Positions 2,545 through 17,254 of a stretch of 25,598 nt of DNA are shown here, piece by piece. The position numbers and the translations under genes were made by a program. Position 1 is the first letter of the stretch. The number at the start of each line of letters is the position of its first letter. The DNA is from a virus. A model generated the notes under the pieces. The model was not told the DNA's origin. It did not search any database and saw nothing but the letters and a program-made list of their open reading frames with translations. Location of the stretch: IMG/VR virus record IMGVR_UViG_3300047546_001557, positions 1-25,598 of that record, one strand, 5' to 3'.

Positions 2545-3405
2545 ATGGATAGTAGGGATGTTATTGGGCTTTATGAAGCTTATCGGTCTGTTTATTACGA
2601 AAACACGGAAATCTATGATTGGGCTTTGGAATTAATTGAAGAAGGCTATGATCTTGATGATTACAGTGACGATGATTTAATTGAGGCTTTTATCTCTGAG
2701 AGAAAAAACAGTGATTCAAAAGGAGTTGCACATAAAGCGGGTATTAATGAGCCAGATGCTTGGGGACCACCTACGCCTTTCGGTCAGGAGGCAACCCGCA
2801 AATCTTTAGCCTCTGGGATCCGAGGTGCTCGCGCCTTACAACAAAAAGGAGTAAGAATAAACAGACACCACAAAAATAAATACCTATCCCATAAAGTACA
2901 TCAAGGCTGGTCTCATGCTGCACAAAACAGCGAAAATCAGACTGACGCTCAAAAGGAACGTAGATCTAAACTTATTAACCCTGATCTTAATAGTTTTAGG
3001 ACTAATCTTTCAAAGAAAGAAAGAGCCAAAGATTTGCCATTTGTAAACAAAGCAGTTGCTGCCGCCAGATCTAAAGGAAAATCTGTTTCTGAAGAATTGG
3101 ATATTTACGATCTAGTTTTAGATCATTTACTTGATGAGGGATTCTGTGATGATGTAGAATCTGCAGAAGTCATTATGGCTAATATGAGCGAAGAGTGGAT
3201 GGATGAAATCGTAGAAGGATTTGTCAGCCCCTACAAAACTCGCCCAACTTATGGAAATCCTCAGGGCACATCTCCTGCGATGAAGGCTCTTAAAAAGAGC
3301 GATGAACTACAAAAAACCGAGCTAGGTTCAGCACGACAGAAAAAACAGACTCGCAGATCCCAACAACTAAATCGCATGTTCCAGGCTGCCCGACAAGGGG
3401 CTTGA
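2545..3405 (+). CDS. unknown protein with acidic helical modules, probably virion- or prohead-associated
   Basis: This 286-aa protein of unknown function starts with a short segment containing LYEAYRSVY and an acidic stretch (EIYDWALELIEEGYDLDD). A basic, low-complexity centre follows (residues about 50-180). Then comes an acidic helical module, ELDIYDLVLDHLLDEGF...SAEVIMANMSEEWMDEIVE (about 188-226), and a basic Lys/Arg/Gln-rich tail. The start segment and the acidic module recur in the protein at 8543, so the two are paralogues. A late promoter precedes it although it sits among replication genes, which points to a structural or packaged protein. A role as a head-internal protein is a guess. 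Its stop codon lies inside the -35 box of the next promoter. Confidence 0.7.
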   Translation: MDSRDVIGLYEAYRSVYYENTEIYDWALELIEEGYDLDDYSDDDLIEAFISERKNSDSKGVAHKAGINEPDAWGPPTPFGQEATRKSLASGIRGARALQQKGVRINRHHKNKYLSHKVHQGWSHAAQNSENQTDAQKERRSKLINPDLNSFRTNLSKKERAKDLPFVNKAVAAARSKGKSVSEELDIYDLVLDHLLDEGFCDDVESAEVIMANMSEEWMDEIVEGFVSPYKTRPTYGNPQGTSPAMKALKKSDELQKTELGSARQKKQTRRSQQLNRMFQAARQGA

Positions 3406-3430
3406 CAACCAGAGTAAAACATGCTATAAT
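3402..3430 (+). promoter_or_regulatory. sigma-70 consensus promoter, extended -10
   Basis: TTGACA (3402-3407), a 17-base spacer and TATAAT (3425-3430) match the bacterial housekeeping consensus fully, with TGC in front of the -10 box. The -35 box overlaps the stop codon of the upstream gene. Start of transcription is expected near 3437, inside the 5' arm of the following hairpin. It should be an early promoter read by unmodified host polymerase. Confidence 0.85.
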
Positions 3431-3462
3431 ACGGTCGTCCACACAAAAGGACGGCCGTTTTT
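3431..3462 (+). terminator. intrinsic terminator overlapping the start of the promoter's transcript
   Basis: A 10-bp stem (3431-3440 with 3449-3458, one G-U pair), an 8-base loop and five T residues form a typical rho-independent terminator for transcripts coming from gp46 and the gene at 2545. RNAs that start at the overlapping promoter near 3437 lack most of the 5' arm and should escape it. Confidence 0.8.
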
Positions 3463-3527
3463 ATTGAAATATAATTTATGATCTAAATACCTTGTCTGTT
3501 GGAACTGCAATTCTCTACAGATAGATT

Positions 3528-3552
3528 AGGTGTTCTTTATGGGCACCTTTTC
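3528..3552 (+). terminator. terminator-like hairpin
   Basis: AGGTGTTC (3528-3535) pairs with GGGCACCT (3541-3548) using two G-U pairs, with a 5-base loop, and is followed by TTTTCTT. It would stop transcripts from the promoter at 3402 before the endonuclease gene, leaving an RNA of about 115 bases without a plausible reading frame. Confidence 0.6.
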
Positions 3553-3555
3553 TTG

Positions 3556-3563
3556 TATAAATA
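3556..3563 (+). promoter_or_regulatory. late promoter motif TATAAATA
   Basis: This is an exact T4 late promoter consensus. It ends 25 bases before the ATG of the endonuclease gene at 3589, the usual distance in this window. Confidence 0.7.
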
Positions 3564-3588
3564 AAACTGCAGTTCCAATAGAATAGCA

Positions 3589-4428
3589 ATGACTAAACAA
3601 AGTCCGCGTATCTATACGTACAAAATTACATTTGAAGAAGTTCCTTATTACTATTACGGAGTCCACAAGGAAAAGAGATTTAATGAAGAATATTGGGGAT
3701 CTCCACATACTAATAAATGGGCTTGGGAGTTTTATACGCCAAAGAAGCAGATACTTGAGTTTTTTGAGTATAGCGATGAAGGCTGGCTAGAAGCTCAAAA
3801 AATAGAAGAGAGGCTTATTAAGCCTTTTTATAATACCGATAAATGGTGCTTAAACGCATGTTGCGGCCTTAAATTTTCCCTTGAACTTTTAAGAAAAAAT
3901 GGAAGAAAACTTTATGAAAGAGGAGAGGGAATGCATTCAATATCTAAAGAAGAAAGACGTGAAATCGCAAGAAAAGTTGGCCAGAAAGCTTATGAGCTTG
4001 GTATTGGAATTCATTCAATGACCAAAGAGGAAAGACAAGAAATTGGAAGAAGAAATGGAAAAAGATGTTATGAACTTGGAATAGGTGTTTGTGGTAGAAG
4101 TAAAGAAGAAATGATAGAGCAAGGAAGAAAAACTGGAAAAAGGATGTATGAAGAAGGTAGAGGTGTCTTTAGCCGCACTAAAGAGGAAATGATTGAGCAA
4201 GGCAGAAGAGCAGGGCAAAAACTTTACGAAGAGGGTAGAGGAATTCACGGAAGGTCTCCTGAACAAAAACGAGAGGATGCAATAAAAGGTGGCAAGGTAG
4301 CGGGGAAAATAACATCGTCACAACAATGGATGTGTACGGTTACTGGACATATTTCTAATGCAGGTGGACTCTACACTTACCAAAGAAACAGAAATATAGA
4401 TACCAATAATAGAATAAGAATTAAATAG
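3589..4428 (+). CDS. free-standing GIY-YIG-type homing endonuclease with tandem DNA-binding repeats
   Basis: This is a 279-aa protein. Residues 7-90 fit a divergent GIY-YIG nuclease domain: RIYTYKI, then YYYYGVH in place of YIG, then a conserved acidic segment KIEERLIKPFYN with the expected Glu and Asn. Residues about 103-237 are five tandem units of roughly 26 residues (pattern G-K-x-Y-E-x-G-x-G-x-x-x-x-S/T-K-E-E-R/M), which look like NUMOD-type DNA-binding repeats. The C-terminal end (QQWMCTVTGHISNAGGLYTY) resembles the tail of phage homing endonucleases. It lies between a terminator and a sigma-70 promoter and has its own late promoter, as expected of a mobile intergenic gene. No Shine-Dalgarno sequence is obvious before the ATG. 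The family call is by motif reading. Confidence 0.8.
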   Translation: MTKQSPRIYTYKITFEEVPYYYYGVHKEKRFNEEYWGSPHTNKWAWEFYTPKKQILEFFEYSDEGWLEAQKIEERLIKPFYNTDKWCLNACCGLKFSLELLRKNGRKLYERGEGMHSISKEERREIARKVGQKAYELGIGIHSMTKEERQEIGRRNGKRCYELGIGVCGRSKEEMIEQGRKTGKRMYEEGRGVFSRTKEEMIEQGRRAGQKLYEEGRGIHGRSPEQKREDAIKGGKVAGKITSSQQWMCTVTGHISNAGGLYTYQRNRNIDTNNRIRIK

Positions 4429-4453: not shown

Positions 4454-4482
4454 TTGACAAGCTAGGAGATCCGTGCTATAAT
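4454..4482 (+). promoter_or_regulatory. sigma-70 consensus promoter, extended -10
   Basis: TTGACA (4454-4459), a 17-base spacer ending in TGC, and TATAAT (4477-4482). Transcription should begin near 4489 and run into the gene at 4522 and the clamp gene gp45. A weak TCC/GGA hairpin lies at the expected 5' end. Confidence 0.85.
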
Positions 4483-4521: not shown

Positions 4522-4845
4522 ATGAATTCTAATCATCTTTGGAAATATAACGAAGATAAAATCCTTAAAGATCTTGAAGAGTATGTAACAAGTACGTATT
4601 CTGGACATTATTGTGGTGATAGTGAAGAGAACCAAAACATCCAAGCAATTGACTTAATGCAAGCTAAAAATTTAGCTGCTGGATTTTGTCAAGCAAACAT
4701 CCTAAAGTATGGCTCTCGTTATGGAGCCAAAGATGGGCGCAACAAAAGGGACCTACTTAAAGTGATCCATTATGCGATGCTTCTCCTACATTTTGACGGA
4801 CATTATTCCCGCAAAGATAATGGCCTAACCGAATTTTCCCGCTGA
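4522..4845 (+). CDS. DUF3310-like protein upstream of the clamp gene
   Basis: This 107-aa soluble protein follows a strong sigma-70 promoter by 39 bases; a GGAG-type ribosome site lies in the leader at 4498-4501 but is rather distant. Residues 55-95 carry the pattern GFCQANILKYGSRYGAKDG...RDLLKVIHYAMLLL. This is close to the GFxxGNxIKYxxR-Kgg-DLxKaxxY pattern of DUF3310, a small family common in phages and sometimes described as nucleotide-kinase-like on weak grounds. Sixteen bases separate it from gp45, so both are probably early genes on one transcript. Function is not known. The DUF3310 label is by pattern and not by search. Confidence 0.7.
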   Translation: MNSNHLWKYNEDKILKDLEEYVTSTYSGHYCGDSEENQNIQAIDLMQAKNLAAGFCQANILKYGSRYGAKDGRNKRDLLKVIHYAMLLLHFDGHYSRKDNGLTEFSR

Positions 4846-4861
4846 CCTTTACAACTATATT

Positions 4862-5539
4862 ATGAAACTATCACCTGAAACGCTCGCAATTCTGAAGAAC
4901 TTCGCAAGCATCAACGAGTCCATTCTTTTCCGACAGGGGAATAAGATCCGTACTATGAAGTATCCAGCCAAGACCATTCTTGGCGAGGCAGTAGTACCTG
5001 AAACATTCCCTAAAGAGTTTGCTATCTACAATCTCAACCAATTTCTCAACGGATACTCACTTCTGGATAATCCTGAACTGGATTTTTCCGATGAAGAAGA
5101 TCGCTTTGTTCTCCTTAAAGAAGGAAAGCGTAAGATCAAATACTTCTTCTGCAACCCTGAGATGATCAATTCTCCACCGGATAAACCTCTTGTTCTACCA
5201 TCAGAAGATGTGGAATTTAATCTAAGTGCAGAACATCTAGATAAGATCCTCAAGGCTCGCAGCATCTATCAGCTACCCGACCTATCTGTTGTTGGTGATG
5301 GAAGTGAGATTTCTCTAGTTGTTCACGATAAAGAGAATCCTTCATCCAATGAATACACGATTGTTGTCGGTGATACCGGGAATACCTTTACCTTTAATCT
5401 TCGCATTGAAAATATTCTGATCCTTAAGGGGTCCTATGATGTGACGATTTCTAAGTCAAAGATTTCGCGGTTTAATAACACAGCAACCGATCTTGTTTAT
5501 TACCTACCCCTAGAACCTGACTCCAATTTTCAGGAATAA
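4862..5539 (+). CDS. 45: gp45, DNA polymerase sliding clamp
   Basis: This 225-aa protein matches T4 gp45 in length (228 aa) and in position directly before gp44/gp62. It starts with MKLSPETLAILKNFASINESI, the typical first helix and strand of a phage clamp. Two halves with similar strand patterns follow, as expected for one subunit of a trimeric ring. It holds gp43 polymerase on DNA and, in T4, also links replication to late transcription through gp55 and gp33, which is relevant here because late promoters are frequent. The start ATG comes after an AT-rich gap without a clear ribosome site. Confidence 0.93.
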   Translation: MKLSPETLAILKNFASINESILFRQGNKIRTMKYPAKTILGEAVVPETFPKEFAIYNLNQFLNGYSLLDNPELDFSDEEDRFVLLKEGKRKIKYFFCNPEMINSPPDKPLVLPSEDVEFNLSAEHLDKILKARSIYQLPDLSVVGDGSEISLVVHDKENPSSNEYTIVVGDTGNTFTFNLRIENILILKGSYDVTISKSKISRFNNTATDLVYYLPLEPDSNFQE

Positions 5540-8484: not shown

Positions 8485-8510
8485 AGCCTCCTAGTGATAG
8501 GAGGCTTTTT
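8485..8510 (+). terminator. intrinsic terminator after hsp20
   Basis: AGCCTCCTA (8485-8493) pairs perfectly with TAGGAGGCT (8498-8506) across the loop GTGA, a GNRA-type tetraloop, followed by five T residues. It separates hsp20 from the late gene at 8543. Confidence 0.9.
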
Positions 8511-8542: not shown

Positions 8543-9271
8543 ATGGATGCTGCAGACATTTTTAATCTATATGAGGCTTATAGATCTGTTTATGAAGATC
8601 AACAGAGCCTGACTGAAGAAGTAGACGTTGAGCTTGATGAAGCTAATAAATATGAACAGAAATTAGGTGGAAAGGGGCTAGAATCTATATTGCGTAGAGG
8701 GGATAGAAATAGAAGATTTTCTGGGGATGAGCCTGATCTAAAGCGTGATGATGAAGTCATGAGAAAGAACCCGAGCTATGTTGCTGGTTATCGTCGCGGG
8801 GGCCAGGGGCCAGGCTCAGAATTGAGGTTTCATCCTAGAATTAAAGCACATAAAGAAAGAAGAGGCGTCAAAACAAGAGGAACTGGGGTTAGAGAAGATC
8901 TAGACATTTATGATCTAGTCCTTGACCACCTACTTGACGAAGGTTTCTGTGATGACGTAGAATCAGCCGAAGTCGTAATGGCCAACATGAGTGAGGAATG
9001 GCTTGATGAGATTCTTGATGAAGAAACAAAGGGAGAGACGCATATGTTTAAGGGGGAAAAGGGATTAAGTCCAGAGGAAAGAAAAGGAGTTCTTCGGTTT
9101 ACAAGAAAACAAGCGAGAAAAAATGAAGACAATCGCACTGCCAGGCAAAAGATTTTAGGTGTTAAGTTATCTGCCATGAGATATCGCAATGAAAGACGTG
9201 GTTATTATGATGAACCTAATGAAACACCCAGAGGGTCTGGACGCGGAGCCGAAAGTCCAACTGATCGCTGA
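8543..9271 (+). CDS. unknown protein, paralogue of the product at 2545, probably virion-associated
   Basis: This 242-aa protein starts with IFNLYEAYRSVYE, carries a basic Arg/Gly-rich middle, then the acidic module LDIYDLVLDHLLDEGF...SAEVVMANMSEEWLDEI at about residues 118-154, and ends in a basic Arg/Asn-rich tail. Start segment and module match the protein at 2545 nearly residue for residue, while the codons differ at many third positions and the linkers do not align. That pattern suggests an old duplication with selection on two short segments only. It has a late promoter and a preceding terminator, so it is probably expressed late as a separate unit. The biochemical role is unknown. Confidence 0.72.
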   Translation: MDAADIFNLYEAYRSVYEDQQSLTEEVDVELDEANKYEQKLGGKGLESILRRGDRNRRFSGDEPDLKRDDEVMRKNPSYVAGYRRGGQGPGSELRFHPRIKAHKERRGVKTRGTGVREDLDIYDLVLDHLLDEGFCDDVESAEVVMANMSEEWLDEILDEETKGETHMFKGEKGLSPEERKGVLRFTRKQARKNEDNRTARQKILGVKLSAMRYRNERRGYYDEPNETPRGSGRGAESPTDR

Positions 9272-9274
9272 CGC

Positions 9275-9303
9275 TTGACACTCCACCAAATCCATGCTAT
9301 AAT
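9275..9303 (+). promoter_or_regulatory. sigma-70 consensus promoter, extended -10
   Basis: TTGACA (9275-9280), a 17-base spacer ending in TGC, and TATAAT (9298-9303). It starts 4 bases after the preceding stop codon. The expected start near 9310 falls inside the 5' arm of the next hairpin. It should drive the two small genes and DNA polymerase. Confidence 0.87.
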
Positions 9304-9304
9304 A

Positions 9305-9329
9305 GGGAGGCCCGCAAAGCCTCCTTTTT
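9305..9329 (+). terminator. intrinsic terminator overlapping the promoter's transcript start
   Basis: GGGAGGC (9305-9311) pairs with GCCTCCT (9319-9325), followed by a T-run to 9329. The next gene's ATG is only 2 bases further on. Upstream transcripts would terminate, whereas RNAs starting near 9310 lack the 5' arm and should read through. Confidence 0.8.
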
Positions 9330-9330
9330 C

Positions 9331-9639
9331 ATGGACCCAAAACTTATTCTATTAAAAACTGGCGATTATATTGTCTCCAAAATACAAGAAGCTTGGCAAG
9401 ATGATAAGTTTCTATTTTATGTTCTAATTGATCCTCGCCTTATCAAGATCACCGGAACTTATACGATTGATGACAAGCAGAACACCAGTGTATCATTATT
9501 CACATGGCCGCAATTTTCAAAAGATACTGAAATAGAACTACATAAAGATAGCGTTCTTACTATTGTTGATAAGCCAACCCAAGAATTAATTGACCTTTAC
9601 AATCAATCCTGTGAAAATACAGCTACTAATCTTTCCTGA
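9331..9639 (+). CDS. small unknown protein, first of a tandem related pair
   Basis: This 102-aa protein begins with MDPKLILLKTGDYIVSKIQEAW, followed by strand-rich sequence and DSVLTIVDKPTQELIDLYNQ. The next gene shows the same layout (a K/L-rich strand, a D-containing turn, a PF/PRLIKI strand, then DKVLTVAEPNPLLRQKYNQ), so the two look like a duplicated small beta-barrel-like domain often found ahead of gp43 in cyanophages. The ATG lies about 21 bases from the expected transcript start, with no ribosome site other than the terminator remnant. Function unknown. Confidence 0.68.
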   Translation: MDPKLILLKTGDYIVSKIQEAWQDDKFLFYVLIDPRLIKITGTYTIDDKQNTSVSLFTWPQFSKDTEIELHKDSVLTIVDKPTQELIDLYNQSCENTATNLS

Positions 9640-9877: not shown

Positions 9878-12374
9878 AAAATGGTATACATCAGTTAAGC
9901 AAATCGGAAACAATATCTATGTAAGGGGGTACGATAACGGAGAGCATTATAAAGATAAGATTGAGTATTATCCTACCTTCTTCGTGAGATCCAAAAATCC
10001 TACCGAATACAAAACTCTTCAAGGACAATACGTTGCTCCAGTAAACCCAGGAACCATCAAAGAGTGTCGTAACTGGTTAGATCAATACAAAGAAGTTGAA
10101 GGATTTGATATTTACGGAAATGAAAATGCGATTTATCAATACATCTCTGATGCCTTTTCCGATGAAATTGAGTTTGACATTAATAAGATCAAACTGGTAA
10201 CGATTGATATTGAGACTACAGCCAATGCTGGTGTTGATGTAGAAGCTGCAAATGAACAGATCGTTCTTATTACGCTCCAGCATTATTCAACCAAAAAAAC
10301 TCTTACTTGGGGAATTAACCCATTTAATGAGCGAATTGAGAACAATACTTATTTTGAGTGTGCCGATGAGGCTGATCTATTAAGGAAGTTTCTTGATTAT
10401 TGGGAATCTGACTACCCTGAGGTAGTGACGGGTTATTATGTTCGTACCTTTGATATTCCCTACATCGTAAAGCGTTGTCAAAAAGTGTTGGGAGAATCAG
10501 AAGCCAAGAGGCTTTCTATCTGGAAAGTAATCCGTGATAAAAAGATCACTAATAGCAACGGCAAAGAAGATCTGACTTATGAACTTTATGGTATTGCTAC
10601 CCTTGACTTTGCAGAGCTTTATAAGAAGTATTCATTCAAGAATCCAGAGAATTATAGATTGGATACTGTTGCCGAAAATGAGTTAGAAGAGAAGAAGTTA
10701 GAGCACACTGAGTACAATACATTTAATGAGTTCCAACAAAAGAATTGGCCACTTTTCGTGCGTTACAATGTGGTTGATGTTCAGCTAGTTGATAAACTTG
10801 AATCTAAACTAAAGTTGATTGAGATGGCAATGACTCTTGCTTATCAGTCAAAAACTAACTATGAAGATGTGTTCCATCAGGTAACAATGTGGGATGCAAT
10901 CATTTATAACTATCTGAAAAAGAAGAATATTGTTATTCCCAAGAAAAAAGTTTCCAATAAAGATCACAAGTTTGGCGGAGCTTATGTAAAGGAACCTATT
11001 CCAAATAAGTATGGTTATACTGTATCATTAGATGCTACAAGTCTGTATCCTCACATTATGATGGGGGTCAATATTAGCCCAGAAACATTAGTTAATGAAC
11101 ATTTTTCTGGTATTGATGTAGATCTTGTTCTTGATAAAAAAGTAGATACCTCTAAGTATTTAAACTATTCTATTGCCCCTAATGGGGCAATGTATCGGAA
11201 GGACATTAAGGGATTCTTGCCAGAGATTATTGAAGAAATGTTTAATAAACGTAAAAGCTTCAAGCAACTAATGTTGGCAGCTAAACAGGAAAATGAAATC
11301 AATCCATCGGAAGAACTAAAGAAAAAAATCTCAAGTTATACAGTAAAAGAACAGGGGTTAAAAGTCTGTCTTAATTCCAGTTATGGTTCTTTTGGGTCTC
11401 CGTATTTCCGTTTCTATGATTTAAGAAATGCAGAGGCAGTAACATATTGGGGAAAACTTGCTATCAGGTGGGCAAGTAATAAACTGAACAGCTACCTTAA
11501 TAATGCTCTTCAGACAACTGACGTTGATTATGTGATTTACATTGATACTGACTCTTTGTTCTTAAATGTTCAACCATTAGTTGATAAGATATTTGAAGGT
11601 AAGGAACCAACAAAAGAACAAGTAGTTAACTTTTTAGATAAACTGTGCTCAACCAAGATACAACAGTATCTCAATCGGGCTTATGATGAATTAGCTGATT
11701 ATATGCACTCATACTCTCAGAAAATTCACATGAAGCGAGAGAAGATTGCCGATTCCTTTATTATTCTTGCTAAGAAGAAATACTTTATCAATGTATGGGA
11801 CAATGAAGGTGTGAGATACAATGAACCAAAACTAACTGTTACTGGTTTAGAGGCAATCAAGTCATCAACACCTAAGTTTTGTAGGACAAAGATTAAAGAG
11901 GCATTTAATCTGTTTATGGGTGGTTCTGAGCAAGATGTTATCACATTCATTGAACAAACCAAAAAAGAGTTCTTCGCCCTGCCACCTGAAGAAGTGTCCT
12001 TCCCCAGAGGGATCTCCGACATGGTAAAATACCGTGATTCTAAAGGAATCTACAAAAAAGATGTATCAGTGCCCATCAATGCCCGTGCTGCCCTGCTCTA
12101 TAATCATTACATCAAACAAAAGAATCTAACAAATAAGTATCCTTTAATTAATAATGGGGAAAAGATCAAGTACTGTTACTTGAAACTACCTAATCCAATT
12201 AAAGAAAACGTCATTGCATTTGTTCAAAAATTTCCAACTGAACTTGGATTGAATGATTATGTAGATTATAATCTTCAGTTTGATAAGACATTCCTTCAAC
12301 CATTAAGACCAATTCTTGACATTATCGGTTGGAGTGAAAAAGAAACCAATACCCTTGATAACTTCTTTTTATGA
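9870..12374 (+). CDS. 43: gp43, DNA polymerase (family B)
   Basis: This 834-aa polymerase has a complete set of family B motifs. The 3'-5' exonuclease shows Exo I DIETT (113-117) and Exo II in TGYYVRTFDIPY. Polymerase motif A is DATSLYPH (388-395), motif B has NSSYGSFG from residue 502, and motif C is YIDTDS with D559 and D561. A KKKYF motif follows. It copies the phage genome together with clamp gp45 and loader gp44/gp62. The ATG at 9870 is preferred over the GTG at 9864 because AAAGG lies just upstream. It overlaps the previous stop and shares ATGATGA with the next gene. It has no intein or intron, although this gene is a frequent target in phages. Confidence 0.97.
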   Translation: MSEKWYTSVKQIGNNIYVRGYDNGEHYKDKIEYYPTFFVRSKNPTEYKTLQGQYVAPVNPGTIKECRNWLDQYKEVEGFDIYGNENAIYQYISDAFSDEIEFDINKIKLVTIDIETTANAGVDVEAANEQIVLITLQHYSTKKTLTWGINPFNERIENNTYFECADEADLLRKFLDYWESDYPEVVTGYYVRTFDIPYIVKRCQKVLGESEAKRLSIWKVIRDKKITNSNGKEDLTYELYGIATLDFAELYKKYSFKNPENYRLDTVAENELEEKKLEHTEYNTFNEFQQKNWPLFVRYNVVDVQLVDKLESKLKLIEMAMTLAYQSKTNYEDVFHQVTMWDAIIYNYLKKKNIVIPKKKVSNKDHKFGGAYVKEPIPNKYGYTVSLDATSLYPHIMMGVNISPETLVNEHFSGIDVDLVLDKKVDTSKYLNYSIAPNGAMYRKDIKGFLPEIIEEMFNKRKSFKQLMLAAKQENEINPSEELKKKISSYTVKEQGLKVCLNSSYGSFGSPYFRFYDLRNAEAVTYWGKLAIRWASNKLNSYLNNALQTTDVDYVIYIDTDSLFLNVQPLVDKIFEGKEPTKEQVVNFLDKLCSTKIQQYLNRAYDELADYMHSYSQKIHMKREKIADSFIILAKKKYFINVWDNEGVRYNEPKLTVTGLEAIKSSTPKFCRTKIKEAFNLFMGGSEQDVITFIEQTKKEFFALPPEEVSFPRGISDMVKYRDSKGIYKKDVSVPINARAALLYNHYIKQKNLTNKYPLINNGEKIKYCYLKLPNPIKENVIAFVQKFPTELGLNDYVDYNLQFDKTFLQPLRPILDIIGWSEKETNTLDNFFL

Positions 12375-16612: not shown

Positions 16613-17254
16613 ATGATTAATAAAGAACTATTTCAAAAACTGAAGCCAGAAATTTATGCGGATGACCCAAGGTTTATTCCTGTTCCGGCACACCGTAAAG
16701 AAGATGCTGGCGCTGATCTAAGGGCATTTGTTCCGGCGAATGAGTATGAAGTGTCTCAAATTATTCTGGAAGTTATCACGGCACTTCAAAATGATAGGGT
16801 AAAAAATATTTGTATTGATGGTAAAGTAGTAGATCCTGATAGTATTTCTGCTGATACTATTGCTGCTACTGGAGGTTGCGTTAGCTTACTGCCGGGAGAA
16901 ACGAAATTAATCAATTCTGGATTTAAGATTGCTCTCCCTAATGTAGAAGAAATTTATCCATTTCTTCCTGTTTACAAAATTGTTAGCCGTAGTGGACTAT
17001 CCTGCAAACATAAAATATCTGTAACAAATCGTCCTGGCATCGTTGACAAGGGTTATCGTGATTGGATCGCGGTAAGTCTGGAGAATGAAGGACACAGTGC
17101 TCATATCTTTACTCATGGAGCCCGTATTGCTCAAGGTCTTTATGAGTTAGTAATTGATCTAGGAGCATGGGACATTGGAGAGCTACGGGTAAATGAACTA
17201 AGTAGTAGCAACCGTGGTGAAAACGGTTTTGGTAGTACAGGTTTAGGAGGTTGA
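16613..17254 (+). CDS. dut: dUTP diphosphatase (trimeric dUTPase family)
   Basis: From ATG 16613 this is 213 aa. The five dUTPase motifs are present: AGADLRA (32-38), SRSGL (125-129), GIVDKGYRDW (from 142), ARIAQG (from 170) and RGENGFGSTG (201-210). A roughly 50-residue insertion lies between motifs 1 and 2, making it longer than usual (about 140-150 aa). It hydrolyses dUTP to dUMP and PPi, keeping uracil out of phage DNA and supplying dUMP for dTMP synthesis. It fits with ribonucleotide reductase downstream. The frame opens 69 bases earlier, inside gp41, but that part reads as out-of-frame gp41 codons, so the start at 16613 (5 bases after the gp41 stop) is chosen. Confidence 0.9.
   Translation: MINKELFQKLKPEIYADDPRFIPVPAHRKEDAGADLRAFVPANEYEVSQIILEVITALQNDRVKNICIDGKVVDPDSISADTIAATGGCVSLLPGETKLINSGFKIALPNVEEIYPFLPVYKIVSRSGLSCKHKISVTNRPGIVDKGYRDWIAVSLENEGHSAHIFTHGARIAQGLYELVIDLGAWDIGELRVNELSSSNRGENGFGSTGLGG

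Follow-up and report, generated by a model that had tools for sequence, protein, structure and literature searches.

What does a strong promoter do to a terminator that it overlaps? In the DNA analysed here, which we call the window and which is the entire 25.6-kb virus record, a perfect consensus promoter runs directly into a terminator hairpin. A preliminary description of the sequence proposed that initiation removes the 5' arm of this hairpin, so that RNA from upstream should stop and RNA begun locally should pass, and that the design is used twice. The question is whether this arrangement exceeds chance and what it could do for the phage. We consider it probable that each of the two sites is a promoter-terminator composite of the same kind as the "promoter early stem-loops" (PeSLs) of T4-type phages, and that it serves as one-way punctuation and as a homology patch for gene exchange.

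Results

Two promoter-terminator composites in a T4-like cyanophage

The window encodes a gp46-like subunit, a clamp loader, RegA, a family B DNA polymerase and UvsX, which places it among the T4-type phages. Its source is a T4-like freshwater cyanophage, kin to the Kyanoviridae. The closest annotated kin is Synechococcus phage B23, and the host is therefore probably a freshwater cyanobacterium. The genes flanking the composites (gp46-like, DUF3310, clamp and clamp loader) belong to replication and recombination. A scan of the window against Rfam gave no match and a tRNA scan found no tRNA. The features considered below are as follows.

2545..3405, + strand: ORF upstream of site 1, 286 aa, with a phrog_3708 segment; its stop codon TGA (3403-3405) lies inside the -35 hexamer
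3402..3430, + strand: site 1 promoter, TTGACA (3402-3407), 17-bp spacer and TG-extended TATAAT (3425-3430), 12/12 consensus
3402..3481, + strand: shared element of about 80 bp, where homology to contigs L235 and L239 begins or ends
3431..3458, + strand: site 1 terminator hairpin, 10 pairs including one G-U, with the expected start (3437) in its 5' arm
3459..3465, + strand: site 1 T run, TTTTATT
4454..4482, + strand: third perfect promoter, 5' of the DUF3310 gene, without a terminator
4522..4845, + strand: DUF3310 gene; in relatives a composite lies directly 5' of it
8543..9271, + strand: ORF upstream of site 2, 242 aa, paralogue of ORF 2545-3405
9275..9303, + strand: site 2 promoter of the same class, -35 at 9275-9280 and -10 at 9298-9303, 12/12 consensus with TG extension
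9304..9329, + strand: site 2 terminator hairpin and T run, arms 9304-9311 and 9319-9326, then TTT; expected start 9310
9331..9639, + strand: gene 3' of site 2 (ORF9331), 102 aa, DUF6561; its start codon lies 2 nt past the composite

The promoter of site 1, TTGACAACCAGAGTAAAACATGCTATAAT, is a perfect extended -10 sigma70 promoter, and the hairpin starts at the base directly after the -10 without a gap. The 5' arm is ACGGTCGTCC (3431-3440), the loop ACACAAAA (3441-3448) and the 3' arm GGACGGCCGT (3449-3458). This confirmed the reported anatomy, in which a start near 3437 falls inside the 5' arm of the 10-bp stem; given the usual distance from -10 to start, the local RNA would indeed lose six bases of the arm, 3431-3436.

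At site 2 the stem-loop is AGGGAGGC-CCGCAAA-GCCTCCTT, followed by TTT, and its stem is unlike that of site 1. The design thus recurs as the preliminary description had it, but "independently" was too strong a word. The ORFs upstream of the two sites are paralogous (58 aa at 69% identity plus a common N-terminus), and the site 2 promoter of contig L239 shows an 87% match over 39 bp to site 1 of the window even though the stems differ; the two sites are therefore not fully independent.

The two paralogous ORFs, each beside a composite, share the N-terminal LYEAYRSVY and a VYDLVLDHLLDEGFCDDVESAEVIMANMSEEWMDEI-like block, with little in common between these parts. At 8485-8506, 5' of ORF 8543, lies a plain terminator (AGCCTCC...GGAGGCT-TTTT) whose stem is identical in bases to that of the site 2 hairpin.

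The overlap exceeds chance expectation

The window holds four perfect promoters of this class, each of them on the + strand; a control search of the window with the reversed promoter pattern found none. No terminator follows the perfect promoters at 4454 and 23332, and the overlap is therefore not a by-product of the promoter sequence. Given the 8 strong + strand terminators in the window, the probability that at least two of four promoters are abutted at +1..+4 is about 1e-5; it is about 1.4e-3 if promoters and terminators are both confined to the 8% of intergenic DNA. Among 229 promoters of the class, which was all sequence compared at that stage, only sites 1 and 2 had an abutting U-tailed hairpin. 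Generic consensus promoters of viral contigs had no terminator abutting them, and strong phage promoters therefore do not share the design in general.

Initiation is predicted to remove the base of the hairpin

Folding energies agreed with the proposed effect of initiation on the hairpin. The energy changed from -17.8 kcal/mol for the full site 1 hairpin to -5.6 kcal/mol if RNA starts at +7 (3437), and from -11.8 to 0.0 kcal/mol at site 2 with a +7 start at 9310. For the hairpins of relatives, surveyed with offsets restricted to +1..+5, the median was -14.3 kcal/mol in full and -2.2 kcal/mol when started at +7, and the register is conserved in these kin. The actual start position matters, because at site 1 the hairpin would retain -11.1 kcal/mol with a start at +4 and -7.8 kcal/mol with one at +5.

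Where only part of an arm is lost, unpaired bases still separate what is left of the stem from the U run, and such a gap hinders intrinsic termination. We propose that the intrinsic terminator of the upstream gene overlies the point at which a strong host-sigma70 promoter starts transcription of the downstream gene, and that initiation at this promoter would cut the hairpin. RNA from upstream would carry the complete hairpin next to the U run and stop. RNA begun about 7 nt past the -10 would be without the base of the 5' arm, could not close the stem at the U run and would read through. The short element would double as a homology patch at which phages swap neighbouring genes while the regulation of both sides stays unbroken. 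Counting against the mechanism, many composites of the DUF3310 family have short T runs, for example CCCTTTATT. The efficiency of termination is also uncertain, because ribosomes terminating at the nearby stop codon of the upstream gene may hinder folding of the hairpin.

The element had further been thought to isolate early and late units. We set this idea aside because both flanks consist of replication genes; the only exact TATAAATA late motif of the window lies downstream, at 3556.

Just 5' of a homing-endonuclease-like ORF at 3589, a long inverted repeat at 3495-3585 (TTGGAACTGCA...TGCAGTTCCAA) surrounds a smaller terminator-like hairpin (3528-3548) and also encloses this late-type motif, the only exact copy in the window. 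The region resembles T4 genes in which a ribosome site is hidden in early RNA and exposed by a late promoter.

Composites precede DUF3310 genes in relatives

Most of 80 relatives of the DUF3310 gene have a composite just 5' of the gene, typically TTGACC-N14-TGATATAAT-T-GGGGAAGG...CCTTCCC-TTTAT. The one in B23 reads TTGACA...TGCTACAAT-ATTGGTTCTCC-ctgcaa-GGAGAGCCGAT-TTTTT, and the isolates DSL-LC03, S-SRM01, S-CREM1 and S-H38 also have a composite before DUF3310/gp45 genes. By reading, no clear composite was seen at the DUF3310-type gene of the marine phages S-PM2, metaG-MbCM1, S-CAM8, P-TIM68, ACG-2014f and S-SZBM1. A search by sequence for relatives of ORF9331 in viral contigs and phages found none; B23 has a positional counterpart, gene 0301, with a weaker composite 5' of it. 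Scans of the collection for further copies of the site 1 element returned only contigs already in the set. In the annotated isolates of the DUF3310 family the upstream gene is CobS-like; at 72/76 family loci the TGA of the upstream gene shares bases with the TG that extends the -10. Because the upstream stop codon is inside the promoter, the hairpin stands at the place expected for the upstream gene's own terminator.

At many DUF3310-family loci (L138, L168, L188 and similar) the loop of the composite holds a possible ribosome site and an ATG (AAGGTAAAAATG), which at some of them shares the reading frame of the downstream gene.

Hairpin register is narrow and stems vary

We scanned the 65 unique promoters of the DUF3310-gene set with hairpin position unrestricted. 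A hairpin was detected at 48 promoters (17/65 had none), and it started at +1..+4 after the -10 in 47/48 cases, which are not independent events since much of the set shares ancestry. The same scan of generic viral promoters found a hairpin in 4/62 and a start at +1..+4 in 0/62. Sequences 3' of the promoters, chosen on the promoter alone, folded at -13.0, compared with -3.9 after shuffling that kept base content but not dinucleotides, and -10.6 for arm-swapped chimeras. Folding of arm-swapped sequences replaced the counting of pairs, as the family alignment was ungapped and, with loops of variable length, the 3' arms did not line up in it.

The stems differ between the two window sites, B23, S-CREM1, S-H38 and the DUF3310 family. 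Within the family survey at offsets +1..+5, loops ranged from 4 to 11 nt and 59/435 stem pairs were G-U. The T-rich tail is on one strand, with a mean of 5.2 T in 8. Between near-identical flanks the stem goes from GGGG..CCCC (L163) through GGGG..CCTC (L164) to GAGG..CCTC (L162), and to judge from these sequences the series is a compensatory stem change with a G-U intermediate.

These data bear on three other explanations. If terminator and promoter abut simply because intergenic space is short, the exact overlap would bring no benefit. The genome is compact and upstream stop codons lie inside the promoter, as this explanation expects, and in the other cyanophage contigs L218 and L220 the hairpin before the orthologue of ORF9331 covers the -35, with the T run forming the promoter spacer. 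The exact register is therefore not essential, since the terminator there overlaps the promoter in another register. However, plain compaction does not predict the narrow register of the DUF3310 set (47/48 at +1..+4) while stems and loops vary. Common descent could explain part of this narrowness, and we regard compaction alone as unlikely, though as the most serious of the three. The alternative register of L218 and L220 lies at about 1440-1530 (L220 on the reverse strand), 5' of a gene resembling ORF9331.

It is very improbable that the inverted repeat is mainly a DNA operator, bound over the start site by a dimeric repressor, and not mainly an RNA signal. The start site is a classic position for operators and the arms are symmetric, but the variable loop length, the G-U pairs, the one-stranded T-rich tail and the different stem sequences within the same genome speak against it. 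We give equally little weight to a hairpin that stays in the local transcript and shields its 5' end or controls translation. A start at 3437 would leave a 4-bp GTCC/GGAC stem at site 1, and at the 23332 promoter there is likewise a small 5' hairpin, one that lacks a T run. Against this, a +7 start leaves no hairpin at site 2 and little in the family (median residue -2.2), and a start 5' of the arm is unlikely given the promoter geometry. A promoter-terminator composite with one-way action remains our preferred reading.

Gene content changes at the element

Contigs L235 (IMG/VR 3300008448_001803) and L239 (3300008107_000224) are 99.7% identical over 2.5 kb rightward from the first base of the promoter, and unrelated to the left of it. 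The window has the left gene and the element in common with L235; with L239 it shares at site 1 only the 80-bp element. Inside the element, the window is identical to L235 for the first 40 bp and to L239 for the following 40 bp, so that the apparent crossover falls there. To the right, L235 and L239 have one DUF3310-like gene; in its place the window carries a homing-endonuclease-like ORF, a further promoter and a DUF3310 gene that differs from theirs. Between the window and L239, which are separate contigs, both the gene to the left and the block to the right of this shared element differ. At site 2, homology of the window to L238 and L239 resumes at 9273, beside the -35, and the hairpins differ. 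These mosaic breaks suggest that relatives exchange gene modules at the composite element; the contigs that show the mosaics come from metagenomes, and they could be chimeric assemblies in which the shared element misled the assembler.

Discussion

Promoter-plus-stem-loop cassettes of T4-type phages are called PeSLs and tied to gene shuffling in PMC4503421, which names as sources two papers in Genome Biol Evol, one by Arbiol et al. in 2010 (2:140) and one by Comeau et al. in 2014 (6:1611). In line with that account, both window sites join a strong sigma70-like promoter, early as judged from its sequence, to a stem-loop overlapping the start region in a T4-type phage, and they stand at joints of changing gene content, as seen in the breaks between the window, L235 and L239 (with chimeric assembly possible).

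The composites differ from the promoters of phage RB49 in layout. A fixed-rule scan of 61 TTGAC-type promoters of RB49 placed hairpins in the spacer at 12, across the -10 at 9 and at +1..+6 at 2, against about 2% or less per hairpin class at random positions; we take these scanned hairpins to be the published PeSLs. In the window and its relatives the hairpin nearly always starts 1-4 nt after the -10 and has a regular T-rich tail, unlike in RB49, and because the register differs we limit our claim to a PeSL-like variant. GC-rich hairpins that sit within the spacer or span the -10 occur at no fewer than 21 RB49 promoters (L282-L290); they are often near-identical (TTGACAGGGGATCGGTGATCCCCTATAAT) and mostly have no T run.

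Density differs as well. In T4-type phages, PeSL cassettes are expected to be dense in hyperplastic regions, and high density is the T4 pattern (PMC4503421), unlike the two composites in 25.6 kb of replication genes here and the two found in the 243 kb of B23. S-PM2 resembles the window as a T4-like cyanophage with a host-like early promoter and stem-loops, but its promoter (5322-5350) and stem-loops (11369-11391 and 16829-16854) lie in separate places (PMC4503421). The haloarchaeal tailed virus HGTV-1, compared by description, has a promoter-like box and an inverted repeat before many ORFs, which its authors likened to PeSLs; unlike in the window, the promoter is archaeal and TATA-like, and the account demonstrates no termination (PMC3950731).

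Such joints in T4-like phages are already known, and what is new is a distinct, widely conserved layout and register. By their sequences, the window composites and PeSLs probably work alike, set apart by the register, the regular T-rich tail and the low density. A more specific reading is plausible, but we hold it with somewhat less than even confidence: in the Kyanoviridae and their freshwater kin, a conserved promoter-terminator bisected by its start site may have been retained at the DUF3310/gp45 operon and at ORF9331 because its action is one-way, and exchange inside the 80 bp may let neighbouring gene blocks be replaced.

For a compact genome, such an element would let one stretch of bases hold the stop of one gene and the start of the next without merging the two units. 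It would also give T4-like cyanophages a concrete recombination joint, a role for which PeSLs were judged unlikely as an explanation of gene gain in S-PM2 in earlier work (PMC4503421).
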